Source of the DNA: Clostridia bacterium
GTDB lineage: Bacteria; Bacillota; DTU025
DNA: 39,939 bases
Assembly (NCBI GenBank): GCA_034926675.1
Contig: JAYFQW010000034.1
Coordinates: forward strand, 1 to 39,939
Reading direction: 5' to 3'
In this document: positions 1,521-39,939 of the stretch, in pieces
Layout: every line of letters begins with the position of its first letter
Position numbering within the stretch: position 1 is the first letter of the stretch
Position numbers and translations under genes: made by a program
The notes under the pieces: model-generated
The model's input: only the letters and a program-made list of their open reading frames with translations
Told to the model about the DNA's origin: nothing
The model's database searches: none

Positions 1521-2513
1521 CTATTGCAGGGCCCCCAGCAGCTCTCTGTACCACGCCTTATCCCTGCTCTTGTTCTCGCGTCCGGCCTGCTTGACCTTTT
1601 CGATTATCGCTTTGGCAACACGTCGCTTCTGCTCGGGTTCGGCCTCCAGCCGTTGCCACTGTTCGAAAATACCGTGTATCGAGCCTGCAACTGCCGAGTT
1701 GGGCAGAACCTCAATCTGCTGAATGAGATCAGCGACCTCCTTCTGCTCCGGCTCGACAGGCGGCACAGGTGGCCCGAGCTCCAAACTGAGCCGTCCGTAG
1801 CCACTGCTGGTCTTGGCGCCTACTCCAGCTATCTCCAGCGAGTGCTTGAGGAGATCGAACGCTGCCGTAACCCACTCCTCCGGTCCCGCCAGCGCAATCA
1901 GGTAGACACCGTCCGCAGACAGAAACGGTACAGGATTCGGGCCATCCCAATCCGCGGGCGGGACGTTTCCTGTCTGATAGTAGTCCGGGTGGTGCACCGT
2001 CATCACATCCGGAAGGAGCCTGCTTGTTCCGGGTACCGGCATCGCGTCAAAGAAAGTGAGGTAGCTGGCGCTATCGGAGTCACCGAACATCACAGAGTGC
2101 GCACGGCTCGCAGCCCCCGGCTGCCAGTCGTCACCCAGCCATTGCCTGGCAAAAGACGATGCCAGCCCTTTAAGGGCTGTGCCGGGAATGTACGGGACGC
2201 CCAGCGTGTGATGAAGCATGATGGAAGTTTCGAGCACGCTGTCTTCGCCTAACCCAACGGCCATGCGTCCTGTGACCGTTGCGCGTCTACAACTCGCTCC
2301 GGACCCTTCGAGGCATTGCTTCCATCGACTGAACCAAACAGAGTAGCATTCGGGCTGCCGTATCGCCGCCACTTGCTCCACAAGCGACGCACGGGCGTCG
2401 GACGAGCGATCCTGATCCCGGATATACTTGTCAAGCCAAAGCCCGGCGTTGGTTGTTGGCTTCACTCCCGCCTCAACCAGATGATACCGCCTTGTCACCC
2501 TAATCACCTGCAT
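1521..2513 (-). CDS. cmr6: Type III-B RAMP protein Cmr6 (Cas7-like)
   Basis: The protein is 330 residues if it starts at ATG 2513, which overlaps the end of cmr5 by 14 bases and follows a GAGGAAG stretch; the frame is open further upstream, with another ATG at 2522. The central region RMAVGLGEDSVLETS plus LGVPYIPGTALKGLA is the RAMP signature of Cmr6: a glycine-rich start and the PY(I)PGTSLKG motif. A later stretch, VGAKTSSGYGRL, is the usual second glycine-rich loop. The C-terminal 90 residues are charged and helical, an extension beyond the RAMP core. Cmr6 caps the backbone of the Cmr effector complex. It is the last gene of the cmr operon, and the csb2 remnant follows immediately. Confidence 0.9.
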   Translation of the reverse strand: MQVIRVTRRYHLVEAGVKPTTNAGLWLDKYIRDQDRSSDARASLVEQVAAIRQPECYSVWFSRWKQCLEGSGASCRRATVTGRMAVGLGEDSVLETSIMLHHTLGVPYIPGTALKGLASSFARQWLGDDWQPGAASRAHSVMFGDSDSASYLTFFDAMPVPGTSRLLPDVMTVHHPDYYQTGNVPPADWDGPNPVPFLSADGVYLIALAGPEEWVTAAFDLLKHSLEIAGVGAKTSSGYGRLSLELGPPVPPVEPEQKEVADLIQQIEVLPNSAVAGSIHGIFEQWQRLEAEPEQKRRVAKAIIEKVKQAGRENKSRDKAWYRELLGALQ

Positions 2514-2874
2514 CTTCCTCATCCACGTCCGACTGAACTCCGAGCACTGACGTGGCAAACCGTTTGTACCAGACGAGGGCTGCCATAACATCCCTGGTCA
2601 GCGCCATGTACTCATGCAATTCGGCCTTGCGGCTGCGTTCACACATGTTTGGTACACCGATAGCCTCGGAGATATGCTCGATAAGCTTCTTCTGCTCGGG
2701 GGTCCCCCTGGATTCGACGAAACCAAGCGCCTGGGCCAACCCTGCCGTGCGAATCAGAACCGGCAGCTTATGGGCCATTGAGCCGTACTTGGCGCGAGCC
2801 TGTTGTCCATCGTCCGACATCCCTGAAACCTGCGGGAATATCCCCAAAGCGTACTCTTGGGCCTTGGTTCTCAT
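2500..2874 (-). CDS. cmr5: Type III-B small subunit Cmr5 (Cas11)
   Basis: This 124-residue, helix-rich protein starts MRTKAQEYALGIFPQV, the typical Cmr5 N-terminus, and has a central KYGSMAHKLPVLIRTAGLAQAL, which is the conserved core of the family. The start ATG at 2874 overlaps the cmr4 stop in an ATGA; the open frame extends upstream to 3063, but that part lies inside cmr4 and lacks family similarity. Cmr5 forms the inner filament of the complex that lies along the crRNA-target duplex. It ends in an acidic tail (DVDEEDAGD) that overlaps the cmr6 start, so the two are probably translationally coupled. Confidence 0.92.
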   Translation of the reverse strand: MRTKAQEYALGIFPQVSGMSDDGQQARAKYGSMAHKLPVLIRTAGLAQALGFVESRGTPEQKKLIEHISEAIGVPNMCERSRKAELHEYMALTRDVMAALVWYKRFATSVLGVQSDVDEEDAGD

Positions 2875-3737
2875 TGCTGATCCCCTCCCCCAAGCGTCAC
2901 GCGGCAGAGGCCCCTCCCGACTGTGGCTTTTCCACCAAGCTGAAGCGGTTTCTGTACCAGGCGGCCAAGTGTAGCGAAAACCTGCTCGGGAGCGGCTTTG
3001 ACAGGAGAGGCGGCCACAATGCCTGAAAGGACTGTTTCGGCAGGTAGGGCTTCCTCGTACCAAAGCCCGCCCTTCGCCACGGTCTTGGTATCTTCCTGAA
3101 GCCTTATCCGCGAGAAGACTTCGGTTGCTGTGTCAAGCAGGAAACTCAGCACATCGTCGCTCACAATGCACAGTCGCTGAACCAGCATCGTCTGCCATAC
3201 CGAATCGTCGGGGAATACCTGTCGACCCATCCACTCCGCCCATCGTCGGGCGTTGCCGCTAGTCTCAGAAACCAAATTCAAGTCCTCAAGCAGGACCTTG
3301 CTCGCCTCCGCTATCACAGAACCAGCATCGGACACGAAGCAATGTCCTTCTACAACATCAGGCACTTCGGAAGGAACATCGGTCACCCCTGCGCTGTCCG
3401 CATCTCGAAGGAAACGGCGAAGGACGTAAGGTGAAGTGACCCATGCGAACGTTCCCAACACACTCCGGACCGGCAGAAGAAGCAGCCGAAGGTCTGAGAA
3501 GGCCGCCGACCCCGCATGCGCAACGTCGCTGGCCGGATCTGGGCCGAAAACCGCGGTACGCATCTCCTTGTCTTCACAGGCATCACGCAGCACACCCTTG
3601 AGAGACGACCCCGGTAGATATGGCAGACCTGTGGCCTTCTCGCGCGCAACAGGAAGATCCATTACCCCCACCCCTTGCCCGGTTCCTGCATGCAGCGGCG
3701 AAATGGCATGAACGAACACAAGACGGGATTTCATCAC
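2871..3737 (-). CDS. cmr4: Type III-B backbone and target-RNA cleaving subunit Cmr4 (Cas7)
   Basis: At 288 residues it has normal Cmr4 length. The N-terminus SPLHAGTGQGVGVMDLPVAR, followed by TGLPYLPGSSLKGVLRD, is diagnostic. The Asp in MDLPVAR (residue 27) is at the position of the catalytic Asp that cuts target RNA at six-base intervals in studied Cmr complexes. The later stretch SAAFSDLRLLLLPVRS and GTFAWVTSPYVLRR is also characteristic. Cmr4 polymerises along the crRNA. The gene starts 9 bases after the cmr1 stop (ATG ATG at 3737) with a GAGGTAATG context, and overlaps cmr5 by four bases. Confidence 0.94.
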   Translation of the reverse strand: MMKSRLVFVHAISPLHAGTGQGVGVMDLPVAREKATGLPYLPGSSLKGVLRDACEDKEMRTAVFGPDPASDVAHAGSAAFSDLRLLLLPVRSVLGTFAWVTSPYVLRRFLRDADSAGVTDVPSEVPDVVEGHCFVSDAGSVIAEASKVLLEDLNLVSETSGNARRWAEWMGRQVFPDDSVWQTMLVQRLCIVSDDVLSFLLDTATEVFSRIRLQEDTKTVAKGGLWYEEALPAETVLSGIVAASPVKAAPEQVFATLGRLVQKPLQLGGKATVGRGLCRVTLGGGDQQ

Positions 3738-3746
3738 ATTACCTCC

Positions 3747-5099
3747 TCACAGAGAATTCAGAAAGACCTGCAGAACGTTCGGGTCCCCATGCAGCGGCTG
3801 AATTGTAGCGGCTTCTTGATTCGTGAGCATTGCCTGCACACTGTACTCTCTCTGATCGCCTTTCAATACCAGCCCCTCTGGGATCTGTTCGACACTCGTT
3901 CCTTCAAGAACCAATGCGAGGCCGACGGCTCCCCCTCCATCACACGCCACCGGGCGCAGTATCAGAGGGCTGGCAAGACGCTCGCAGCCTTCGGCGCCGC
4001 CCTGCAGGGTTGTCGTAGAAGGGTCGCCCGCTGCCTCATCCTTGAAATGGAACACAATAGGAAGCCCGAAGGCTGCACGGGGGAATTTCCGTACTTCTGA
4101 GATGGGATCCCTATGCCTATAACAGCTGCTACCTGTTAGCCTTCTTATCTCATCCGGTTCTGGCCATTTGCTGCGCCCGGGCGTAAGGGGGGGATTGCGT
4201 GGGTAGCGCTCCTGGCGAAACTCGCACAGTCGTTTGGCCAGGTGATTCCACGCTTGCGTGGCGCTGTCGAAAACCTGGGTTACTGCCATTCGCGGGTCTT
4301 TGGCAAAACGCGGAATCCCGTCAGGCCACTCGCCATCTGAAACATGTCGATGCAATCCTTCCTCAATGAGGAGCCTAATATCTTGCGGTGTAGCAACCTG
4401 ATCCGTTTCAGAACTAGGCTTAGGATCAACAGAAGTCAATCTCAATGCGCCGAACCCTCGCCTGGTCCGCCCACCAACCCCTCCAAAAGTCTCCCAAGCC
4501 CAGAGTGCAGCTTCGACCTCTGCCCGCTCACTCTCGGGGAAGGTGAGAATCAAATCGAATCTCACATTGCCCATGAGCGAGTGTATTGTGGTCTCCGTGC
4601 CGTCGCGCCTAATGGCTTCCCTCTCAGGCTGCAACGGAAACGCTACATACGGGTGAGCAACCGCAGCCACAGATCTCGCCACGGGCGCACGTCCTTCTCT
4701 GGACTGAAGACTGAATGCCGTCAGAGGTCCGCCTCTGCGAGTCACCTTCACAGCCAACTCCACCTGTGAAACCCTCGGCTTGCTAGGGGTGCTGGCCGCG
4801 CCCCACAGCCTGCTCTCAGCTTCTCTCATTCTCCGCAAGTCTCCGCCGAATTTCCCGCCCCGGCACGCGCGCCACCAAAACCGCAGCTGCCCCCTGATTC
4901 CGGAGCCACGGATCACAAGGTCCGAATCGGCCCTTCCAGGCTTGGCGCCGCCCCCGAAGAGAGGAGTTATCAGCTCGTAGCTTCGAGTCTGAGTTATCAA
5001 CGGAATCCGCCGGCCGCCCGACACTCGGCTATCTAACACAGGTTCTACCGCAGGCGGCGAGATCGGTGTACCCTCTTTGTCAGTGGGAATCCTTCGCAT
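3747..5099 (-). CDS. cmr1: Type III-B RAMP protein Cmr1 (Cas7-like)
   Basis: I place the start at ATG 5099 (450 residues), preceded by GGAGGTGTAGAAGGG and 8 bases after the cmr3 stop; the frame stays open to 5225 inside cmr3. The region TQTRSYELITPLFGGGA followed by IRGSGIRGQLRFWWRA is the Cmr1 hallmark, and further on FGGVGGRTRRGFGAL gives the second glycine-rich loop. Cmr1 caps the Cmr4/Cmr6 filament and helps bind target RNA. The protein is longer than the smallest Cmr1 proteins because of a C-terminal half with a second RAMP fold. No lesions are seen. Confidence 0.92.
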   Translation of the reverse strand: MRRIPTDKEGTPISPPAVEPVLDSRVSGGRRIPLITQTRSYELITPLFGGGAKPGRADSDLVIRGSGIRGQLRFWWRACRGGKFGGDLRRMREAESRLWGAASTPSKPRVSQVELAVKVTRRGGPLTAFSLQSREGRAPVARSVAAVAHPYVAFPLQPEREAIRRDGTETTIHSLMGNVRFDLILTFPESERAEVEAALWAWETFGGVGGRTRRGFGALRLTSVDPKPSSETDQVATPQDIRLLIEEGLHRHVSDGEWPDGIPRFAKDPRMAVTQVFDSATQAWNHLAKRLCEFRQERYPRNPPLTPGRSKWPEPDEIRRLTGSSCYRHRDPISEVRKFPRAAFGLPIVFHFKDEAAGDPSTTTLQGGAEGCERLASPLILRPVACDGGGAVGLALVLEGTSVEQIPEGLVLKGDQREYSVQAMLTNQEAATIQPLHGDPNVLQVFLNSL

Positions 5100-5107
5100 G
5101 GTCCCTT

Positions 5108-6280
5108 CTACACCTCCATTCGCTGGAGTGTCCCATACCAAACTCCAAGCGCAGCAAGCCCAAATCCATCGAGGCGATCCTGCTCTCCGTCGCTGACAGG
5201 CGACAACCAGATCCTGTCGACCCATCTGTCAATGGCGTCGTCATCGCCACTCAGCTCAAGGAATAGGACAGTTCCCGCCGGGGCAAGCCGCCGAGCAGGT
5301 TTCGGGCCTCTCTCTGCCATGTCCCATCCGGATACAACGTGCGGCCTTCCTATGGCAATCGCCTTCAGCCCGGGAGTGACTCCGTCGATCTGGTTGAGAA
5401 GCCATGTCGGTCTCCACCCCGTCTCGAAATGAGCGTCCGTCAGGAGTACCACCCTGCAATGGCGGTTTCGGCGTATGTGGCTCTTCAGCCGGTCCGGGCA
5501 TGCCGGCAAGGACGAGTCGCTCTTCCGCCACACGGCCAGCCGTCGTTCTCCGCCCAGAAAGCCCAGTCCGTCTGGGAGATTGAGCGTTTCGGTGGCCACT
5601 GCCAGCGCCAACCTATGCGCGTCGCCGGGATTCGACCCGCCCCTGGGTCTGGTGAACTCCAGTCCTCTCGTCTGAAAGAGAGCCCCTTTCTCCACGTCCG
5701 CGGCTCCGGTCTCGGGGTCTATGCCGACGTGCACCCGAGCTTCTCGCGTGGGTCCGTCATGTCCGATGCCCTCAAGATCGACACTCTGATCCTCCGGGTT
5801 CACAAGCCACTCTTCAAAGGCTTCCCAGTACCAGTAACGCGGCGCTTTCTTAATGGGCTTTCGGAAATCGGGCTTCGGCATTCCCACAAGCGAGAGACCC
5901 TCTGGAAGGTCGGTGTGCACATCGGGAGGAGCTTCAAGAGGGACTAGCCGCTTCAGCGCTGCCCGCGCGCCATCAGGCGGTTCCGGCTCCAGCAGCAACG
6001 CATCTGATGGCGAATGAACTAGCCAACGCGCGATATCGCCTGTGTTCTTGTCAAGTTCAACGAGGAGCGGGCCATGAACGGCAATCTGCTTCACCCATGA
6101 GATGGCGTCCTTCTGAAACCGCCCCTCTCCATCCTGACCTGCTCTGGTCCTTAATGCCCCGGCGGTTGTTGAGGGAAACGGAAAGGGCAGAGACACCGCT
6201 CTGGTTCCGGGCACTGCGTCAAATGGGCGACCATCGCGGAAGATGAGCGGGTCTCGAGCTTCGATAACCCAAACAGTCAT
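5108..6280 (-). CDS. cmr3: Type III-B subunit Cmr3 (Cas5)
   Basis: This 390-residue protein begins VWVIEARDPLIFRDGRPF and continues with LPFPFPSTTAGALRTR, both conserved in Cmr3. It carries the glycine-rich FLGGERRLAVW around residue 245. Cmr3 is the Cas5-like subunit that holds the 5' handle of the crRNA and contacts Cmr2. Its ATG (6280) overlaps the cmr2 stop as ATGA, so translation is likely coupled. The C-terminal stretch DRLDGFGLAALGVWYG resembles the last RAMP loop. Nothing looks damaged. Confidence 0.92.
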   Translation of the reverse strand: MTVWVIEARDPLIFRDGRPFDAVPGTRAVSLPFPFPSTTAGALRTRAGQDGEGRFQKDAISWVKQIAVHGPLLVELDKNTGDIARWLVHSPSDALLLEPEPPDGARAALKRLVPLEAPPDVHTDLPEGLSLVGMPKPDFRKPIKKAPRYWYWEAFEEWLVNPEDQSVDLEGIGHDGPTREARVHVGIDPETGAADVEKGALFQTRGLEFTRPRGGSNPGDAHRLALAVATETLNLPDGLGFLGGERRLAVWRKSDSSLPACPDRLKSHIRRNRHCRVVLLTDAHFETGWRPTWLLNQIDGVTPGLKAIAIGRPHVVSGWDMAERGPKPARRLAPAGTVLFLELSGDDDAIDRWVDRIWLSPVSDGEQDRLDGFGLAALGVWYGTLQRMEV

Positions 6281-8082
6281 TTCTTCTCCCCCTCTCCGGA
6301 TGATGCATCTGGCGAGGACGCAGCAGCTGGCTTAGGAGTCGACGCGAGTTCACGTGCGATGATCAGCTCGTCGGCCAAATGATCAACTGGCAGGCCGTCC
6401 TGGGTCAGGATGTCGACCAGCCTTCGGATTACGTCTTCACTGACTTCTCTCGAACCACGTTCAGCCCTCTTGCGACTCAAGATGCGCTTAACCTCAGAAG
6501 ACAGCACACGCTGTAGCAAGTTGTCGGGGCCTTCCCCCGCGCCCTCAAGTTCCATAGCCAAAGAGCGCAGTTCGTAGCCTAGCTCAGCAGGTATCTCCTC
6601 ATTGCGGTGCAATTCTATGAACCACTCCAGCCTCCGGTCGAATGATCCCCATGTTCCCCCCACGGTCCGCTCCGAACCAGCTCGTTTGCTCAGAGTTACG
6701 GCCAATGCGTTTTTCCCCTTCACGGATTTCGCGTACGATTCAGCTTCGCGGACCAGCTCCAGGGCTTCCGAAAGCGGCTCGAGATGATGCACCACAGCAA
6801 GTCCCACAGATAACGTAGGGTGGACGGCCTTCCCGCTCTTCGTGTCCGCGATGGCGAAACCAGCCATCTGCTCGCGGAAGGCATCAGCCAGAGTTCTCGC
6901 GCACTCGAGCGCACTGTGCAGAGGAAGCAACGCCAACACGTCGTCTCCCCCGGCGTAGATCAGGGACCCTCTGAATCGGCTCACAATAGGTTCGACGCGC
7001 CTGGCAAATAGGCTGGCCGCTCGGGACAGGGCTCTGTGCTGCTCGATGGTTCGCTGCTCGGCGATGATCTGCCCCATATGGTCGCCGTCAGCGTGCAACA
7101 GCGCATAGTAAGGGCCGGGGCCGGCGCCGCCAAAGGCTCGATCTAGGAACCGGCCCAGCGCTTCCTGTGCCTGCCGGAGCTTGTCACCGTCAAAGAATTC
7201 TGCCAACCGCTCAAGATACAGCAGATGACCGTCGTTATAGCCGAAGACAGGGTCCTTCACAGGGGCAGTGTCAAGACCATCAGAGCCTATCCCCAGTTGT
7301 CTCAGGCGACCGACATACTCTTCGACTGCGCCTCGATGCCTCTCGTTGAGCCGTTCCAGCATGGGCATTGCCGCAACATGCGACGTGCTGAAGAAACGGT
7401 CGCCTTGTCCACGTCTGCCATGTCGCTTTAGCAGTCCTACTCCGCACAGCCTCTCCCCTCGGCGCACCCCGTAGCTTTGCCGAAGCTCCTCCCCGCTCAT
7501 CGTTCGGTAGGCGTCCCTCGGGATCACCGATTCACGCAATCCATCCAGAGAAGACTTCTCCTCCGAACTCCCCCATTTTGATGGGGCGAAGTCCCGGGTT
7601 GCCTTCCTTGCGGCCATCAGGGCCTCAGCCTGTGTGCGGGCCCCGGCATAGTCATCTCTGATCGGACACGAAACCCAGAACAGCTCCAGCAAGTCATCAA
7701 CTTGCAGTTGCGCCGTTGCGCGATCGAACTCGGCTGCCTTCCCGACCCTGTCGAACGCTTCATCACTGATCTCCCGCAATCGTTCCAGCACTCGGATGCG
7801 AACGGCCTCTCCCAGCTTTGCGGGGTCTTCTCTAGTTCTGGCAACGATTCTGTTTGCGGCATTGAAGTTGTCAAGGCGCAGTTCGGATAGGCTCTGCGGC
7901 GCCGGGAAGATCAGGCTCCATTCGATATCCCCGCCGCTGCGCTCCACGATTGCCTCTGCGGCGGCCTTGCTCAGCTCGCTCAGCAGCCATGAGCCAAACC
8001 ACAAATCCCGGCTGCGGCGAGCAGAGGCGATAAACTCCTGGACCGGGCCGACGTGAAACACGACTAGGTGCACTTCGTCCAT
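6277..8082 (-). CDS. cmr2: Type III-B large subunit Cmr2 (Cas10), HD-less, with active palm motif
   Basis: I start this 601-residue protein at ATG 8082, eight bases after a strong GGAGGAGGG; the open frame runs upstream to 8133 without support. It opens HVGPVQEFIASARRSRDLW, the usual N-terminus of Cmr2 forms that lack the HD nuclease domain. Palm-domain motifs are present: HADGDHMG (about residues 331-337) and IYAGGDDVLAL with GGDD at 378-381. Intact GGDD predicts synthesis of cyclic oligoadenylate when target RNA is bound, matching the two CARF effectors encoded just upstream. The CxxC pairs that form a zinc finger in longer Cmr2 proteins are not visible: only RGERLCGVGLLKR remains, with one Cys. 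Without an HD domain, DNA cleavage by the complex itself is not expected. It is the first gene of the cmr operon. Confidence 0.95.
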   Translation of the reverse strand: MDEVHLVVFHVGPVQEFIASARRSRDLWFGSWLLSELSKAAAEAIVERSGGDIEWSLIFPAPQSLSELRLDNFNAANRIVARTREDPAKLGEAVRIRVLERLREISDEAFDRVGKAAEFDRATAQLQVDDLLELFWVSCPIRDDYAGARTQAEALMAARKATRDFAPSKWGSSEEKSSLDGLRESVIPRDAYRTMSGEELRQSYGVRRGERLCGVGLLKRHGRRGQGDRFFSTSHVAAMPMLERLNERHRGAVEEYVGRLRQLGIGSDGLDTAPVKDPVFGYNDGHLLYLERLAEFFDGDKLRQAQEALGRFLDRAFGGAGPGPYYALLHADGDHMGQIIAEQRTIEQHRALSRAASLFARRVEPIVSRFRGSLIYAGGDDVLALLPLHSALECARTLADAFREQMAGFAIADTKSGKAVHPTLSVGLAVVHHLEPLSEALELVREAESYAKSVKGKNALAVTLSKRAGSERTVGGTWGSFDRRLEWFIELHRNEEIPAELGYELRSLAMELEGAGEGPDNLLQRVLSSEVKRILSRKRAERGSREVSEDVIRRLVDILTQDGLPVDHLADELIIARELASTPKPAAASSPDASSGEGEKK

Positions 8083-8207
8083 ATTTCCAAACCCTCCTCC
8101 TCTCTGACAACGCCATCCATGAGGCAACGTCATACTGCCCTGCTAACCAGCACCTTTCATTCTCATAGGTTCATGCGACCGCGTAAGGCTGCTGCGGCAG
8201 AATGCCG

Positions 8208-9116
8208 CTACGCTCCCAATTGCTTTCGCATTGATGCGAGCAGTAACTGTTCGTCTTCAGGGGACAACGCGCCTGTTTGAGCCGAAGGAAGCTCAATCAC
8301 AGTTATTCCATGGGCCTGTGCAAGCTTGAGATTATCGGAGCCATACTCCCTATCCAGTACGAGAATCTTCTTGGTGTACACACCCAAGAAGCGCTGTTCT
8401 CCAGCGGCGATTATCTGCTCGACTCCCCTTTTCTCCCTCGCCTTGCCGCCGCTCTTGACTTCAACTATGCCGACGCCATTACCCCGGCGCAGCACCAGGT
8501 CGATCTCTAGATTCCCGTATGAATGCGGCCTCACAGAAGCCTTTACCTCATCGAATTCAGGCTGCAGCGCTTTATAGACCATCAGCTCGAACCCATCTTT
8601 GGGCAGGCCTTCTTCATAACCGCCAAAGTGGGCTCTGAGGTGGAGGTCGATGTCAAGAGTTGCCCCCACCGTTGCTTCTCCGAGGAATTCAAGGCCCTGT
8701 TCAGAACTGACACGATACGTGTGTATCTTGTTGCCGTTCCCCTCACTTATTAGGTAACAGAACGGAGTGCCATGCGACTCGGCTAGGCGATAGGCCGCAA
8801 TGGCCATAGTCTTGGTGCCGCCCGTGAGGTTGAACAAGACCTCGTCCGGCGTCCAAGACTGCTCGCCAATGAGCTTGCTTATCCTTGCTTCGATATCAAC
8901 TATGTCATAGGGGCCGACTTCCTCAATTGTGCACTTGACCGGAACACCATGTTCAGTGGTTTGTTCCTCCAGGATGGAACGCAACTTGTCAGCAACTGGC
9001 CTCGTCCAGGACGTACAGACCAGAACCGCATGATGAGGTTGCAGACAGAGTACTGGCAGCAGATTAGCAATAGGTTGCTCTCCCACTAGAGAGATCATCA
9101 CCCTGCGATTGTCCAC
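8208..9116 (-). CDS. can2: CARF-PD-(D/E)xK cyclic-oligoadenylate-activated nuclease, Can2/Card1 type
   Basis: The N-terminal half is a DUF1887-like CARF domain (MISLVGEQPIANLLPVL; LFNLTGGTKTMAIAAY with GGTK near residues 99-102). The C-terminal half has a PD-(D/E)xK nuclease core: Glu in GFELMVYKAL, Asp in NLEIDLVLRRG (about 206) and Glu/Lys in VGIVEVKSGG (about 219 and 221). This order is that of Can2/Card1, which are nickases or nucleases switched on by cA4. The 302-residue length is shorter than the roughly 370 of Card1. The chosen start is GTG 9116, ten bases after GGAGAAGGGG; a TTG at 9137 and ATG at 9098 are alternatives. It lies 125 bases upstream of cmr2 in the same direction, so it probably supplies the nucleic-acid-degrading output of the type III response. 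Confidence 0.85.
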   Translation of the reverse strand: MDNRRVMISLVGEQPIANLLPVLCLQPHHAVLVCTSWTRPVADKLRSILEEQTTEHGVPVKCTIEEVGPYDIVDIEARISKLIGEQSWTPDEVLFNLTGGTKTMAIAAYRLAESHGTPFCYLISEGNGNKIHTYRVSSEQGLEFLGEATVGATLDIDLHLRAHFGGYEEGLPKDGFELMVYKALQPEFDEVKASVRPHSYGNLEIDLVLRRGNGVGIVEVKSGGKAREKRGVEQIIAAGEQRFLGVYTKKILVLDREYGSDNLKLAQAHGITVIELPSAQTGALSPEDEQLLLASMRKQLGA

Positions 9117-9222
9117 ACAACCAACCCCTTCTCCCAAATGCTATTGGGCTTTCAAGGGCCCGCAGTTCGTGAACCCTGCGTTCGGCTCCGCGCCGTGATG
9201 ACGGAAGTATCTAACTCGAGTA

Positions 9223-11056: not shown

Positions 11057-13177
11057 TCAGTCCCCGAAGCATAGCCTCATCAACCTTTCGACCGCCTCCT
11101 TGTGTTTCGCCCGAAGCCAGGCTGGAGCCAGGATCTGGGCCGACGAGCCGAACCCGCGTATCCAGGCCCGGAATTCGTCCACACCGGAGACTATGTCGAA
11201 ATAGAGTATTGAACCATCGCCGAGCCTCTCCACTCGGGCGTGTTCTCGATGCCGGGCGACCTTCAACACCTTGTCAGGCACACTGAAGTCGTTTTCGAAA
11301 TGCACGATCACGTTTACAGCCGGGCCGCCGGTAGCCATACCCCATGCATCTCTGAAGAGGTCTTCAATGCGGAAGTCGTCGGGATAAGCGAATTTGGAGC
11401 CGGCGATCGCCTCGACATTGCGCATGACGTCCACGCGATAAGTGTTGTTGGTTGAGGAGAGTATCCCGCCCTGCAGCCAATCCCTGGCCGCTAGATACCA
11501 TTCGCCGCGTTCGCGGAAATACACGAGGGCCAGAGGCGCCGCGACCCGCCTTCGTCCGTCGCGATCGTACATGAACGACACCAAACGCGAATCTTGGGCG
11601 CACTCCTCAAGCAGGCTAACCTTGGCTTGGGTGTCGACGTCGGTGTATAGAGCCGGCAAACCCTTCACACAGCGCCACCCTGGCAGTCTGCTCATCGCCG
11701 GCTCGGCAGTGGCCGCGACCTCGCCGTCCGAGCCCGATAGGCATCTCCTCAGTTTTGCACATGCGGAGGCCAGTTTGGCGTCGCCCCCGATCGACCGCCC
11801 AATCACGTCCAATAGAGCCTCCGCCTCATTCGGCGTGAAGACGATGGGAATCAGCCGCCGGGCGCCATGGCGATAGATGCGCCAGACCCGCTCGGCCCTG
11901 TAGCCATCGGACATCGTGTGAGGATCATCGAAACCGTAATCACCATCATCCTGGTCCCATTCATCCGGGTCGGGTTCAAGACCGACTCTCAGGGACTCCA
12001 GGGCAGCCCTGTAATGAATCATGTGAGCAGGCGGGATACCGAATCGGTGCGCTATATGACCCTCGGAGAGCCCTGCATCGCCCGCGTCTATTAGGGCATC
12101 TGCGATGGACCGAAGCTTCTCCACCACCACAAAGTCGGGCGGCCTGCCGACCTCAGGCGCCCTCCACAGCATCGGCGCGCTCGGGCAGGCCATGGCTTCC
12201 AGTTCGGACGGGGCCTGCAAACGATCCCTCAGTGGCCCTCCGGGCAGGCGCGACAACTCGCCGAACAGCCGCTCAGGCGCAGAATCATCCGAGTACTTTT
12301 CGTGCAGACGGCGAGCGGTCTCCTCCATACGCTCTCTTAGGGCCTCAGGCTTGAAGACCACGGCAGACGCGCCGAACTGCCTGATCCAGGCCGCGATCTC
12401 AGTCAACCCGCGCACCCTGTCGCGCAGCACGACCGAACCGTCATCCAGAGTAGTCAGGATTGCGCTGGGGCGGTAAGCCACGTGCCCCCGTACCTTGTCA
12501 ATCACGCGGAAGTCGTCAAAGAAACGCACCTCTACGTCGTACAGCGTACCGCTCATCTCCACGCCCCACGGCTCACGAAAGCACTCCTCAAGATCGAAGT
12601 CCTCGGGGTAGTCGAATGTAAGCCAGGTCTCGCGCAGTGACGAGATGCGCGATCCGCGCAGAAGGTTTACTCTCTCGCTAGAACCCAGCACCGCAAGGTA
12701 CCAGTCGTCCTGCGCCCAATAGTAGACCGTCCCCAGAGGGCACACTACTTGCTCCTCCATACCGCCCCGGCGTGGGCGATACACGGTGAGCAACCGGTGA
12801 CGCCTGGCAATGAACTCAGCGATGAACTCAGCGTGCCGCTCAAACTCGGCTCTCTGCCCACGCGGCCTGCCTTGGAAGTACCGAACCCACCTGCGCGATG
12901 CGTACTGACCGAGGGCGCTCGTATCGCCACTTTGCATTGCATACCGGATCAGGTTCCCCTCGGCTCTTGCAAGCGCTTTCCCCCTGTTCCCTACTTCGCG
13001 TTCGGTACGGATCAGGTCCAGAAGACGCGATACTTCTTCAGCGGTAAGGGCGTACGCTGCAGTCGGTATCCGCCTGGGCCTCACAGACCGGTTAACGACT
13101 TCGGCAAGCCCGTTGGCGATCAGCCCGTTGATAGCCGCCTCCACCCTGTATTCCTCAGTACGCAGGTGCTCTGCCAC
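11057..13177 (-). CDS. Tandem WYL-domain transcriptional regulator, main part (upstream part split off by TGA)
   Basis: Two similar halves are fused. The first has a winged-helix piece (residues 1-45), a WYL domain (about 130-205, with VCPLGTVYYWAQDDWYLAVL) and a WCX-like tail (YDVEVRFFDDF to about 290). The second has another HTH (about 365-410, GLSEGHIAHRFGIPP), a second WYL domain (about 520-600, APLALVYFRERGEWYLAARD) and a second WCX tail. WYL proteins bind nucleic-acid-like ligands and often control CRISPR and phage-defence loci; this one lies directly upstream of the cas genes. The GTG at 13177 has no ribosome-binding site. The frame stays open upstream to a TGA at 13244, beyond which the same frame encodes another HTH, so this is probably the larger part of one disrupted gene. 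Confidence 0.75.
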   Translation of the reverse strand: MAEHLRTEEYRVEAAINGLIANGLAEVVNRSVRPRRIPTAAYALTAEEVSRLLDLIRTEREVGNRGKALARAEGNLIRYAMQSGDTSALGQYASRRWVRYFQGRPRGQRAEFERHAEFIAEFIARRHRLLTVYRPRRGGMEEQVVCPLGTVYYWAQDDWYLAVLGSSERVNLLRGSRISSLRETWLTFDYPEDFDLEECFREPWGVEMSGTLYDVEVRFFDDFRVIDKVRGHVAYRPSAILTTLDDGSVVLRDRVRGLTEIAAWIRQFGASAVVFKPEALRERMEETARRLHEKYSDDSAPERLFGELSRLPGGPLRDRLQAPSELEAMACPSAPMLWRAPEVGRPPDFVVVEKLRSIADALIDAGDAGLSEGHIAHRFGIPPAHMIHYRAALESLRVGLEPDPDEWDQDDGDYGFDDPHTMSDGYRAERVWRIYRHGARRLIPIVFTPNEAEALLDVIGRSIGGDAKLASACAKLRRCLSGSDGEVAATAEPAMSRLPGWRCVKGLPALYTDVDTQAKVSLLEECAQDSRLVSFMYDRDGRRRVAAPLALVYFRERGEWYLAARDWLQGGILSSTNNTYRVDVMRNVEAIAGSKFAYPDDFRIEDLFRDAWGMATGGPAVNVIVHFENDFSVPDKVLKVARHREHARVERLGDGSILYFDIVSGVDEFRAWIRGFGSSAQILAPAWLRAKHKEAVERLMRLCFGD

Positions 13178-13243
13178 TCGGCGGACTAGGTCTTCACGAC
13201 AAGGCCAGCTGTCGGTGGAATGCGCCAGTTCCTCTATAGCGAG

Positions 13244-13504
13244 TCAGACGGCGAGTTCTTCATCGTCCAGATGAAGTTCGCCGCCTGACTCTGGGGGGAT
13301 AGCAGGTATGCAGTCTGTGACAAGTATCGTCCTTCCGCGAACATCCAGGCCAAATCCCTGTGAACTCGCTTTCTCCACATACCTACGTACAGTACGATCG
13401 GACACGCCCAGCGCCGTCGCCGCGTCGCTCAATCCCAGCGATGAGGGGTAAGCCTGCGAGACCAAGCCGATCAGAGACTCCAACCCCTGCTCGACCTTGC
13501 CCAT
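13244..13504 (-). CDS. N-terminal HTH piece of the WYL regulator, ended by an in-frame TGA
   Basis: From ATG 13504 (GGAGG ten bases upstream) the 86-residue peptide contains a DeoR/HTH_11-like helix-turn-helix: LSDAATALGVSDRTVRRYVEKA. It then runs to DDEELAV and stops at TGA 13246-13244. The next codons in the same frame (LAIEELAHSTDSW and on) lead directly into the winged-helix of the WYL ORF without any other start codon. The simplest reading is that this is the true N-terminus of an approximately 810-residue double-WYL regulator and that TGA is a nonsense mutation, a sequencing error or, less likely, a readthrough site. If translated alone it would be a small DNA-binding protein. Confidence 0.65.
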   Translation of the reverse strand: MGKVEQGLESLIGLVSQAYPSSLGLSDAATALGVSDRTVRRYVEKASSQGFGLDVRGRTILVTDCIPAIPPESGGELHLDDEELAV

Positions 13505-13556
13505 CTCGAAGAAACCTCCATCCAAACGCTGCACTCAATGGTGGTTTTTCGCCATG

Positions 13557-13565
13557 ATTCTAGCA
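13557..13565 (-). promoter_or_regulatory. Possible extended -10 promoter element for the HTH/WYL regulator
   Basis: On the minus strand TGCTAGAAT fits an extended -10 (TGn-TAnAAT). It lies about 50 bases upstream of the HTH start at 13504. No clear -35 hexamer stands at 17 bases. Weak, sequence-only evidence. Confidence 0.25.
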
Positions 13566-13872
13566 TTTCCTTCACATTTCTCGACTCCGCCGGAGCCTAG
13601 CACATCCGTCGTCGTCCATCATCATCGTCGTTAGTCATCCTCCCTGAAGGTCCCTCGCCGCCAATCGACGAATACTCGGGACATATGGCAATCTTCACTG
13701 TTCTCCACGATCCTCGTCTCACGGGAAAGACGTATTCACCATCGGAACCGTCTCTTCGAACATACCCTCTCTGCTACCCTTCGATCCGAGCTATACGGCG
13801 GCTCAGATTCGCGACATCCTCGATCGCGGAGCCAATGTCAATGAAGCGATCAGCGGCGGCTGGACGCCCCTC

Positions 13873-14577
13873 ATGTTCGCTGCACGCCGCGGCGCCGACG
13901 TAGAGGTTATCCGGGCTATGCTTGCGGCGGGCGCCGACGTCAATGCGGCCGACTCGCAAGGCAGAACGGCATTCATATGGGCTGCATCTGAAGAGAGCAA
14001 CCTCGAGGCGGTAAAGGCGCTGCTTGAGGCGGGCGCAGATGTGAATGCCAATGATGGTGAGGCACTATCCATGGCGGCCTGGGAGCACAGCTCGCCAGAG
14101 ATGATTGAGCTGCTGCTGGCCGCAGGTGCCGACGTGCATGCCGGCGAGGACGACGACGGTCGAACACCGCTTGCTTACGCTGCAATGACCGCCTCCGACC
14201 CGCAGGTGATCCGCATGCTGCTTGATGCGGGCAGCGACGTCCACGTGCGCTATGAGGAGGGCTACACGGTTCTCATACTGGCGGCAGGAGACAACCGAAA
14301 TCCCGAGATCGTCCGCATGCTCGCCAATGCAGGCGTAGACATCAATGCCGTCAAACAGCCTGAAGGGTGGACAGCCCTGATGATCGCGGCCCAAGCCTGC
14401 AAGTCCCGGGGAATCATTGACGCGCTCCTTGACGCGGGCGCCGACGCCACGCTCAAGTGCACAGATGGGAAAACCGCCTTCGACTACGTCAAGGGAAGGA
14501 AGTGGCTCAAGGGCACTGACGCGTACTGGCGCCTGCGCGATGCGAAGTACAAGTCCTATTCCGATTCCACAGACTAG
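13873..14577 (+). CDS. Ankyrin-repeat protein, apparently lacking its true 5' end
   Basis: At least six consecutive ankyrin repeats of about 30-35 residues are seen, each with the usual TPL.xAA...LLxAGADVN pattern (for example GRTPLAYAAMTASDP, then RMLLDAGSDVH). The last part (DGKTAFDYVKGRKWLKG) is a degenerate end cap. The first ATG, 13873, falls inside a repeat: upstream codons in the same frame already encode AAQIRDILDRGANVNEA. That frame is open from about 13648 but contains no ATG, GTG or TTG. So the gene is 5'-truncated, uses a rare start (CTG near 13771, or ATA/ATT), or has lost its start. There is no signal peptide in the visible part. Ankyrin repeats bind proteins; no specific partner can be named. 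It is one of very few plus-strand genes here. Confidence 0.7.
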   Translation: MFAARRGADVEVIRAMLAAGADVNAADSQGRTAFIWAASEESNLEAVKALLEAGADVNANDGEALSMAAWEHSSPEMIELLLAAGADVHAGEDDDGRTPLAYAAMTASDPQVIRMLLDAGSDVHVRYEEGYTVLILAAGDNRNPEIVRMLANAGVDINAVKQPEGWTALMIAAQACKSRGIIDALLDAGADATLKCTDGKTAFDYVKGRKWLKGTDAYWRLRDAKYKSYSDSTD

Positions 14578-14626
14578 CGGAGTAATGACAGACGGAGTCA
14601 TCCTCGCGGAAAAGGCCTGTTAGCTG

Positions 14627-15060
14627 GCCTAGCCTCGAACGCCGCGCGGCAAAAACGGCTAGAGCTGGCATATCGCCAGTTTTCATCATTAGTTTCGGAG
14701 ATACCCGCAATTTCTGAGTACATCGATTTCGGGAGACCGCCTGACCGTTTCCAAATCGCGAAAATCGGGGGGTATCCGGCCCGTCCGGGCGTGGAACCGG
14801 GCAAGGCGAATGTGATGACATCCCATCATATGTCTGAACTTGGCAATACCGTCCGGGTGATGGCATGTCATTCCGCCAGTTCGCCATATACTAGGTGGTT
14901 GTTGGCCTTAGGCGAGTCCCGCGCGGCACCGATTTGCCGACTGGCGGCACCCGGTCCAAATCGATGTACTCAAAAACTGCGTCCATCGGCGAGACTATCG
15001 GCAAAAAGTGACGGCTTGCCCGCTTGGATACCCCATTGGGTATATCGTTGGAGTTCAACG
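14627..15060. repeat. Imperfect palindrome of about 430 bases (two diverged inverted copies)
   Basis: Two inverted pairs share one axis near 14843: the outer pair TGAGTACATCGATTT (14715-14729) against AAATCGATGTACTCA (14958-14972), and the inner pair ATGACATCCCATCAT (14815-14829) against GTGATGGCATGTCAT (14857-14871). Outside the outer pair the arms stay alignable (ACTCA-AAA-TGCG, CGA-ACTA and CGTT-GAG at equal offsets) to about 14627 and 15060. Both arms can be read as similar peptides (NRCTQKLR...). No convincing gene lies in it. It may be two inverted copies of a short non-autonomous mobile element or a dispersed repeat; no terminal inverted repeats or target duplication were identified. 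Confidence 0.6.
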
Positions 15061-15168
15061 CGGATACGCGGTGGAATCGCTGACTTTTCGCCGCAAGACA
15101 TGCCTCGCACCTCACCTAGTCTCCTCTAGGATAACCTGCCCGCGCAGCGCCGCATCCACGCCCATAGG

Positions 15169-15623: not shown

Positions 15624-16223
15624 GCTAACCGAAAGCGGATTCAGCACTACATGAGCGACATGCAGATCGCCGGGATCTGCCCGGGGCCGAACCTGAGCCG
15701 CCGCGATCTTCAGAGCAGGCTATATCCTTACCTGCTTCGGGGCTTGGAGATCACGAGAGCAAACCAGGTGTGGGGCATCGATATCGCCTGCATACGGCTC
15801 CGGGAAAGCTGGATGTATCTCGTAGCCGTCATAGACTGGTTCTCACGCTACGTCGTGGGATGGGAGGTGGATGAGACGCTCGAAATACCGTTTGTGCTGT
15901 CCGCAGTCAGGAGGGCGCTGGACGTAGCCAGGCCAGAGATACTCAACAGTGACCAGGGCAGCCACTTCACAAGCCCTCAGTACATGGCCCTCGTAAGTGG
16001 TGCTGAGGTCCAGATCAGCATGGACGGGAGAGGTCGAGCGTGGGACAGTATCCTCATAGAGCGGTTCTGGCGGTCTCTCAAGTATGAAGAGGTGTATCTC
16101 AAGGAGTACTCAATCCCGCGCGAGGCCAGACTTGGCATTGGGGACTACATCGGGTTTTACAATGACCTCAGGCCTCATCAAGCGCTAGCATACAGGACTC
16201 CGGCTGAGGTGTATCTGGGGTAA
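15624..16223 (+). pseudogene. IS3-family transposase OrfB, 5'-truncated
   Basis: The frame from ANRKRIQHYMSDMQIAGI through LRGLEITRANQVWGIDIACI to the stop at 16221-16223 carries the IS3 OrfB rve integrase core. All three DDE residues are present: Asp in WGIDIA, Asp in NSDQGSHFTS and Glu in IERFWRSLKYEEVY. The ending YNDLRPHQALAYRTPAEVY is the standard IS3 C-terminus. The N-terminal 80-100 residues of OrfB and all of OrfA are missing upstream, where an IS66 scrap abuts. Translation could start at ATG 15651 (190 residues), but the element could not move on its own. Confidence 0.85.
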
Positions 16224-36981: not shown

Positions 36982-39939
36982 TTAGCGCGTTATAATCGCC
37001 TTGATCTGGTTCACAACTGAAAGGATCGAGATGATCATGTTCCAGTCTATCTTCTCAGAGAGCGGGACTATCACGATATCGCCCGACTTGAGCTCGGGAT
37101 TGCTGCCCTTAGTCGGGTCGATGGCTATTCCTTTTGCGGTCGTGTCGCCCAGGGCTATCTGGACGGCCTGTTCGCCTGTGTACACCATGATCTTGTCCAG
37201 ACGGGCGGCGGCCATCGGGCCTCCCGCCATCGCCAGGCTATCGATGAGTTTCATGCCGGTCTTGTAGTCGTACAGGCCTGGCCGCGCCACCCCGCCCATG
37301 ACTACGATCCTCCGGAGGGCCTCGGGGACGAACACCACATCTCCGTCTTCCAAGGCCATGGCCTCGCTCTGCGGACTGTCTCCCGAGAGCAGCCCCTCCA
37401 CGTCGGCTTCGACCACCCGGCTGGCGCTCTCGCCCCTTCGGGTGATGACTACCCGAGCGCCGTCGCCTGCCTGGGTTAGCCCGCCTGCGGCGGATATGGC
37501 GTCAAGGATTGTCGCGCCGCGGCGGAGTTCAAACTCACCCGTGCGGATGATGTGCCCCGCCACCTGCACCCTGATTCGCCCGGACGGAACGAAGAGTATG
37601 TCGCCCGCAGTAAGGGTCGGGTTACGCTTAATGTCGCCTTCGAATGCCAGGCGGTCGTCGGCCACCGACAGACGCAGGGCGTCCTCCACGCGCTCGCCGC
37701 GGTAGAGCCTCACCCGGTCCAGGTCAGCCTTGGCTGACGGCCCTCCGGCCATCGCCAGCGCCTCCATCAGGGTCATTCCCTCGGTGTAGACATACACTCC
37801 CGGTCGGGTTACCTCGCCCATAACCGCCACCTGCCGGCGCGTGTCTGATATAAACACCACGTCTCCGTCGGAGAGGGTGTGTCCGATGTCGCCCCCGCGC
37901 AAGGCCTGGTCAAGGTCTACTGTGGCCGACGGACCCGATTTGCCCGCAGGGATCACCAGCACCGACCGCCCATTCCCGTCGGGTGCAATCCCGCCCGCGG
38001 CAGCCACTGCGTCGATCACCCGAGCGCCAGCTGGGATCTCGTATGCCCCAGGCCTTCCGACCTTCCCGATCACGCTCACAGTGATCATTCGCGAACCCAC
38101 GCTCACCACATCGCCCGGGTTGACCGCGGGGTTGTCGGTTACCTTGCCGGAGAACAACACTCCGCCGTGCCCGATGGGCTCAGCCGCGCCCGATGCGAGC
38201 GCGCCGTCTTTGTAGATCGTTACGCTCTCCAGCGACGCCCTGGCAGTAGTGCCCCCGGCGGCGGCTATCGCGTCCAGCAGCTTTGCCCCACGCGGAAGCT
38301 TGTAGGCCCCGGGCCGCGCCACTTCGCCCAGCACCAGAACCTGCCCTCGCGCCTCGGGCACGAACAGGGCATCCCCATCCTCAACGGTCGGCGGAGCTCC
38401 TGTAACTCGACCCGCGAGCAACCCTTCAATATCTATCTCCGCGACAGTCGCGCCCGATGGTCCTCTCCTGGTGAGCACAACCGCGGTCCCATCGCCGTCA
38501 GCTCTCAGGCCGCCCGCCGCCGCCACTGCGTCAAGAACACTCGCTCCTCGCAGCAGCTCGACCTGTCCGGGCCTGCCCACGAACCCCGCTGCCTGAACCC
38601 GGATCGCAGCGCTCGCCACGATAACCACGGAACCAGGCTGAATCACCGGGTTCGCCTTCACGTCTCCTTCATATAGGAGGGTTTCCCCTGCGATCGCCAG
38701 AGTAAGCGGATCTGCAGTGTTCTCCCCGCGGTACACCTTCACAATTGATAGATCAGCCTTTGCCGTCGGCCCGCCGGCCGCGGCTAGAAGGTCCATGAGT
38801 GTGACATCCCGTCCAACCGGGTACACCCCTGGCCTGGCCACCTCGCCCAGGATAGCCGCTTGCTCCCTGGCCTCCGGTATGTAGATCACATCGCCCTCTG
38901 CTAGGGCATAGTTGGATTCCGACTTCTGGTCGCGCAGCACGGCTTCGGCATCCACTGCCAAGCTACCGGGCTTCGCGTTTGCGACTGCCTTCCTAGTCAA
39001 CACCGCCGCCCTGCCATCCGCGCCAGCCGCGAGCCCCCCTGCCGCCGCAATCGCGTCGACAACTTTCGCGCCTGCGGGAAGCTCGTATGCCCCTGGCCTC
39101 GCGACTCGTCCTATCACATTCACCGCCACCACGCGGCTGCCAACAACGATGATATCCCCAACACCCAGCACAGGATTGTCCTTGTTGGCGTCTCCTGTGA
39201 ACAGTTCCTTGCCGGCGCCAATCGGGGAGCTCGCGCCCTTTGAGGCATCGCCCCCGGCGTACACCGTAACGTTCTCAAGCGATGCCTTCGCAGTGGGCCC
39301 GCCCGCAGCGGCTATGGCGTCCATCAGCCTTGCTCCACGCGGAAGCCTGTAAGCCCCAGGCCTCGCCACCTCGCCCATCACCAGGGCCTGCCCTCGCGCC
39401 TCGGGCACGAACAGGGCATCCCCATCCTCAACGGTTGGCGGAGCTCCTGTAACTCGACCCGCGAGCAACCCTTCTACATCTATCTCCGAGACAGTCGCGC
39501 CCGATGGTCCTCTCCTGGTGAGCACAACCGCGGTCCCATCGCCGTCAGCTCTCAGGCCGCCCGCCGCCGCCACTGCGTCAAGAACACTCGCTCCTCGCAG
39601 CAGCTCGACCTGCCCAGGCCTGCCGACGAACCCCGCTGCCTGAACCCGGATCGCGGCGCTCGCCACGATAACCACGGAACCAGGCTCGATCACTGGATTC
39701 GCCTTCACGTCCCCTTCATATAGGAGCGCTTCCCCTGCGACAGCCAGGGTCAGCGGATCAGCAGTGTTCGCCCCGCGGTACACCTTCACAACTGATAGAT
39801 CAGCCTTTGCCGTCGGCCCGCCGGCCGCGGCTAGAAGGTCCATGAGTGTGACGTCCCGTCCAACCGGGTACACCCCTGGCCTGGCCACCTCGCCCAGGAT
39901 AGCCGCTTGCTCCCTGGCCTCCGGTATGTAGATCACATC
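36982..39939 (-). CDS. Giant multi-SLBB polysaccharide export protein (Wza-related), 5' end off the window
   Basis: At least 984 residues are visible and the frame continues past the right edge. It consists of about eleven SLBB (soluble ligand-binding beta-grasp) modules spaced about 87 residues apart, alternating two types: A (ILGEVARPGVYPVGRDVTLM, AAGGPTAKADL, VKVYRG) and B (AAGFVGRPGQVELLRGASVL, AAGGLRADGDGTAVVLTRRG), each pair closed by EDGDALFVPEARGQ. Units of four modules repeat with a period of 1047 bases (349 residues): 38341-38892 and 39388-39939 are nearly identical. The last module is followed by GDIVIVPLSEKIDWNMII, then SILSVVNQIKAIITR, a hydrophobic tail. SLBB modules in Wza form periplasmic rings; two or three is normal. 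The N-terminal Poly_export domain and signal peptide would lie outside the window. It is the first visible gene of the cluster. Confidence 0.88.
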   Translation of the reverse strand, partial: DVIYIPEAREQAAILGEVARPGVYPVGRDVTLMDLLAAAGGPTAKADLSVVKVYRGANTADPLTLAVAGEALLYEGDVKANPVIEPGSVVIVASAAIRVQAAGFVGRPGQVELLRGASVLDAVAAAGGLRADGDGTAVVLTRRGPSGATVSEIDVEGLLAGRVTGAPPTVEDGDALFVPEARGQALVMGEVARPGAYRLPRGARLMDAIAAAGGPTAKASLENVTVYAGGDASKGASSPIGAGKELFTGDANKDNPVLGVGDIIVVGSRVVAVNVIGRVARPGAYELPAGAKVVDAIAAAGGLAAGADGRAAVLTRKAVANAKPGSLAVDAEAVLRDQKSESNYALAEGDVIYIPEAREQAAILGEVARPGVYPVGRDVTLMDLLAAAGGPTAKADLSIVKVYRGENTADPLTLAIAGETLLYEGDVKANPVIQPGSVVIVASAAIRVQAAGFVGRPGQVELLRGASVLDAVAAAGGLRADGDGTAVVLTRRGPSGATVAEIDIEGLLAGRVTGAPPTVEDGDALFVPEARGQVLVLGEVARPGAYKLPRGAKLLDAIAAAGGTTARASLESVTIYKDGALASGAAEPIGHGGVLFSGKVTDNPAVNPGDVVSVGSRMITVSVIGKVGRPGAYEIPAGARVIDAVAAAGGIAPDGNGRSVLVIPAGKSGPSATVDLDQALRGGDIGHTLSDGDVVFISDTRRQVAVMGEVTRPGVYVYTEGMTLMEALAMAGGPSAKADLDRVRLYRGERVEDALRLSVADDRLAFEGDIKRNPTLTAGDILFVPSGRIRVQVAGHIIRTGEFELRRGATILDAISAAGGLTQAGDGARVVITRRGESASRVVEADVEGLLSGDSPQSEAMALEDGDVVFVPEALRRIVVMGGVARPGLYDYKTGMKLIDSLAMAGGPMAAARLDKIMVYTGEQAVQIALGDTTAKGIAIDPTKGSNPELKSGDIVIVPLSEKIDWNMIISILSVVNQIKAIITR

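Follow-up and report, generated by a model that had tools for sequence, protein, structure and literature searches.

Among the repeats described in prokaryotes, MITEs come closest to the one analyzed here, since they too are short, non-coding and dispersed, carry inverted arms, are present or absent at orthologous sites and have no gene of their own. However, the conserved inverted sites of the present repeat are internal and its ends variable, with no terminal inverted repeat common to the copies; it shows one tentative target duplication, and no parent transposase was found. Stem-loop-containing repeats (Cozzuto et al. 2008, PMC2267715) are likewise repeated, foldable, located mainly between genes and found by profile searches, whereas in our family the fold is an inverted pair of old origin, with no coevolution between the arms, and the spacer measures 228 nt. 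The Tn3-derived inverted-repeat miniature elements (TIMEs; PMC4133298) are similarly non-autonomous and hundreds of base pairs long; they have duplications of 5 to 6 bp, against one tentative 5-bp case in our repeat, in which no 38-bp Tn3-type terminal repeat was recognized on inspection by eye. REP, BIME and REPIN elements (PMC3116915, PMC8266576 and PMC2817692) are also dispersed palindromic repeats outside genes, but REPs are palindromic units of 20 to 40 bp (PMC3733652), whereas our unit, with arms of 67 nt and a spacer of 228 nt, is about ten times longer. Literature searches found no paper on this repeat family, which is not proof of absence. The repeat family is new, the MITE-like kind to which it is assigned is known, and its conservation of the core over the ends is unusual.

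The copy described first lies in a 39,939-nt stretch of DNA from a Clostridia bacterium (GenBank assembly GCA_034926675.1, contig JAYFQW010000034.1, positions 1 to 39,939), the whole of which is called the window below. The core that aligns across the family in a 12-copy alignment (A2) and in BLAST comparisons with two related genomes spans positions 14606 to 15056 (plus strand, the orientation being arbitrary), and the right edge of the repeat lies at about 15065. Within it are two inverted arms of about 67 nt: a left one at 14663 to 14729 (plus), covered by matches of a left-arm profile model (R1) at 14616 to 14783, and a right one at 14958 to 15024 (minus), detected both in the inverted-pair search and by the left-arm model. 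These arms are 72% complementary about an axis at 14843.5. The local alignment score of the two halves is 41, above the highest score (26) of 500 dinucleotide shuffles. Moreover, the model built solely from left arms (14 training sequences, with the window's own left arm among them) recovered the window right arm on the opposite strand (14933 to 15024; E = 3e-10).

The original prediction had seen a large palindrome with a single axis, made of two inverted copies of about 215 bases each. The inverted pair and its axis hold, on a smaller scale, as 67-nt arms around a 228-nt spacer (14730 to 14957), but the 215-base copies do not: high complementarity is confined to the outer 50 nt of the arms and a 15-mer at their inward ends. 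In the ungapped register of five equal-length copies, mean complementarity is 0.56 over the outer 50 nt and 1.0 over the 15-mer, against 0.35, 0.28 and 0.25 in segments successively inward of it and 0.25 outward of the arms, where chance is about 0.25. With its inner segments near chance, the spacer is thus not palindromic across the family. An inner pair at 14815/14871, which the prediction placed on the same center as the outer one, does exist in the window as ATGACATCCCATCA / ATGACATGCCATCA (13 of 14 bases; P of about 0.013); however, its axis at 14843.0 sets it one base out of register with the arms, and just 2 of 12 copies (the window copy and L035) pass the same test at P < 0.02, so it is a private feature outside any common palindrome.

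To determine the distribution of the repeat, BLAST searches were run against 21 genomes, consisting of the window genome (G000) and 20 relatives. Matches were recovered in three of them: 37 pieces in the Bacillota MAG THP_Bin_8 (G005), four in UBA5389 (G001) and one in the window genome. A profile search with the left-arm model across 12 genomes of the order (E up to 0.001) gave 34 matches in THP_Bin_8, which we grouped into 23 places, three matches in UBA5389 corresponding to two places, two matches in the window genome, one for each arm of the window copy and so a single place, and none in the remaining nine genomes. Many right arms in THP_Bin_8 and UBA5389, on which the model had not been trained, were matched on the opposite strand, indicating that the inverted architecture is a trait of the family. 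The suggestion of a MITE-like or dispersed family is thus supported, although the copies are scattered in a relative and not in the window genome. The genes next to different copies are unrelated and include those for a DinB-like polymerase, an ABC transporter, RNase J and radical SAM, ApbE and HD proteins, and the copies examined are mainly intergenic. In genome_contigs, 17 stretches matched, nine of them from THP_Bin_8, one from UBA5389 and seven as single matches in unrelated taxa, where our own rough arithmetic gives about four expected by chance. Searches of plasmids and phages returned no match to the repeat, nor did viral contigs searched with one exact pattern. In a tree of the copies, the window copy falls nearest to L031, without support, and the end branches have a median of 0.26 changes per site.

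The inward end of each arm is formed by the same 15-mer, TGAGTACATCGATTT, found by pattern search at 14715 to 14729 on the plus strand and at 14958 to 14972 on the minus strand of the window. At zero to one mismatches it occurs 25 times (22 of them exact) in three of seven genomes searched, always on contigs carrying copies of the family, while a reversed-pattern control gave no occurrence. A chromosome-wide protein site was considered and rejected, the 15-mer being absent outside family copies in these seven genomes. In 12 two-armed copies, the spacer between the 15-mers measures 228 nt in five and 225 to 227 nt in another five; the remaining two have spacers of 217 and 194 nt. Its length is near-constant although the copies are about 40% diverged; between the window copy and L031, for instance, 86 of 228 spacer positions are substituted with no gap. 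The one-armed copies that reach the position of the 15-mer have kept it in three cases (L034, L043 and L044) and lost it in one (L042); L041 has lost its left 15-mer. Retention of the 15-mer by one-armed copies suggests that these are young and that active lineages under constraint account for most of the divergence. With a median end branch of 0.26, intact 15-mers would also be expected from selection in place. The ends of the copies differ by subfamily whereas the core is conserved, which is the reverse of the expectation for a MITE, and a terminal inverted repeat common to all copies was not found. On the right side of the core, a small palindrome seen in the last block of alignment A2 is degenerate in the window (GATACCCCATTGGGTATA; 15027 to 15044) and takes a near-perfect GATACCCCCGGGGGTATA form in most other copies.

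Presence and absence of the repeat at orthologous sites was observed at two loci. At L032, the BLAST-aligned flanks lie 812 nt apart, against 26 nt in contig G001:C99, with no clear target duplication. At L040, they lie 875 nt apart, against 100 nt in contig G000:C79 of the window's own genome, and a 5-nt direct repeat, GCGCC, abuts the ends earlier suggested by other copies; this is our sole, tentative candidate for a target duplication. L034 was also considered as an empty-site case and set aside because the corresponding UBA5389 interval is longer and different, and thus not clean. L045 is equivalent to L035 minus the 15-mers, the inner arm parts and the spacer, a deletion as expected of an unstable inverted repeat. 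A transposase with matching ends was not found. Two further arrangements were seen at individual copies. At L047 (414 to 624 and 5830 to 6619; contig G005:C150), about 850 bp interrupt a repeat copy, and both end pieces of this stretch recur, joined, elsewhere on the same contig. At L031, the repeat is separated from the remnant of an ankyrin gene by a perfect 25-bp inverted repeat (3403 to 3427 and 4077 to 4101) that surrounds unrelated sequence of about 650 bp, and this unit is probably a separate inserted element.

We consider it probable that the family is a non-autonomous, MITE-like dispersed mobile repeat whose 15-mers are the putative paired recognition sites of a transposase or recombinase. 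That the inverted pair is instead a chance feature or a decayed local duplication with no wider meaning agrees with the near-chance similarity over most of the proposed 215-nt arms, but has next to no probability: none of the 500 shuffles reaches the score of the arms, many copies repeat this architecture, and the existence of these related copies refutes it. The 3' end of an IS1595-like element, or a remnant of it, borders the repeat on its left at six THP_Bin_8 places (L036, L038, L039, L041, L043 and L098) and one UBA5389 place (L050), several of them with the same following sequence, such that the repeat might be the non-coding right-hand part of that element, moved by its transposase. The gene of this neighbor scores 47.8 bits against the IS1595 family model, below the cutoff of 75, and 37.2 bits against the IS1/IS1595 zinc-domain model, above the cutoff of 28. 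However, the IS is bounded by paired ends of its own, ACTGTCCCA...TGGGACAGT, which enclose the transposase gene alone, and a search on the far side for an end of this type found none; hence, we read it as a neighbor and not as the mobilizer. Further, a long-open IS copy in UBA5389 (L085) has no adjoining repeat, and for the majority of repeat copies there is no neighboring IS. We therefore rejected the derivation from IS1595, which we regard as distinctly unlikely. In a rather unlikely variant, the 15-mer pair at its nearly fixed 228-nt spacing, together with the conserved core and free ends, would mark a mobile unit recognized at its two internal inverted sites and not at its ends, and used either by a recombinase or by a folded RNA for which the spacer would code.

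The structured RNA that the original prediction also offered received little support. In its most developed form, each copy would be a functional gene of a multi-copy non-coding RNA, in which the 15-mer pair would close a stem and the stem would enclose a folded domain of constant length. The near-constant spacer length is in keeping with this, as are fold z-scores of -5.1 on the minus strand and -3.2 on the plus strand and a consensus fold of the 12-copy alignment that beats column shuffles on both strands (with the local z-scores set aside, some being unstable owing to near-zero variance). Two spacer hairpins, at alignment columns 143 to 185 (three two-sided pairs; 8 of 500 shuffles) and 251 to 277 (14 cells with two-sided change; 13 of 500 shuffles), and G-U pairs favoring the plus strand point the same way. 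Against it, these two hairpins and a third were picked after inspection and show weak compensatory change, the third being unconvincing, and the 15-mer stem, being nearly invariant, shows no covariation. In an unbiased helix scan, the top plus-strand helix reached 0.56 against a null maximum of 0.73 and the top minus-strand helix 0.73 against 0.70, so that neither strand is clearly above the column-permutation null. Outside the 15-mer, left and right arms of one copy pair at 0.585 and those of different copies at 0.579 (P = 0.32, from 10 of 12 copies, with L041 and L050 left out), which identifies the arms as an old duplication and not as a stem under selection. Together with the lack of coding signal and of any match in an Rfam search of the repeat, this disfavors a structured RNA held by the arms. 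There is also no good promoter or terminator found and no consistent neighbor gene, and we regard the RNA gene as unlikely overall. Protein coding was likewise rejected: one plus-strand frame is fully open in the window, yet carries stops in other copies, every frame is interrupted in at least some of the five equal-length copies, substitutions by codon phase (374/446/379) show no phase signal, and pN/pS is 0.71 to 0.96 in all six frames; thus, the repeat has no transposase gene of its own. At one THP_Bin_8 locus (L015, 2179 to 2496; contig G005:C237), a T-box leader match just passes its cutoff (93.5 against 93 bits) and encloses a tRNA match at 2353 to 2425 on the same strand.

As a MITE-like repeat, the element would comprise a core of about 450 nt, or about 600 to 800 nt with its variable ends. 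A transposase or recombinase acting in trans would recognize the inner 15-mers of its arms as a pair of sites set at a nearly constant distance, and the family would have spread in a single genus belonging to an uncultured family of Bacillota. The window copy, which is old, probably arrived by lateral transfer together with an adjoining segment, as it is the one copy in its genome and borders a high-identity segment common to that genus. This segment (12902 to 13946, minus strand), which holds the 5' part of a WYL gene and its upstream region, is 90% identical to contig G005:C203, whereas other compared loci of the window genome and THP_Bin_8 share 66 to 74% identity, except for two pieces, of 81 nt (83%) and 66 nt (80%); the difference suggests transfer between genera. 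In G005:C203, the matching segment is likewise followed by an ankyrin remnant and a repeat copy, but as the two repeats are just about 70% identical, their being the same copy by descent is unsure. In the window, an ankyrin-repeat gene (13873 to 14577, plus strand; Pfam Ank) lies immediately to the left of the repeat. At the right edge of the repeat, a gene is cut, leaving its first 11 codons (15066 to 15101, minus strand; 36 nt with 89% identity to G001:C95). Of the 11 residues, 10 agree with the beginning of a 97-aa UBA5389 ORF that we take, from its motif, to be GIY-YIG-like. Farther to the right is the C-terminal part of an IS3-family transposase (15651 to 16223, plus strand; NCBIfam transpos_IS3, profile positions 193 to 368 of 369).

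These observations add a repeat family that is so far confined to a single family of uncultured Bacillota; its conservation pattern is unusual, combining a core preserved over the ends, fixed spacing and a near-invariant 15-mer. The enzyme, if found, would show whether small elements can be recognized at internal inverted sites. The repeat also marks a likely lateral-transfer boundary beside a type III-B CRISPR locus, whose genes (1521 to 9137, minus strand) encode RAMP proteins, Cmr3, Cmr2/Cas10 and a protein with a Card1-like CARF domain. Beside that locus, a 706-aa protein (11057 to 13177, minus strand) contains two WCX and two WYL stretches, and at the edge of the window a 984-aa protein (36982 to 39936, minus strand) contains 11 SLBB stretches.
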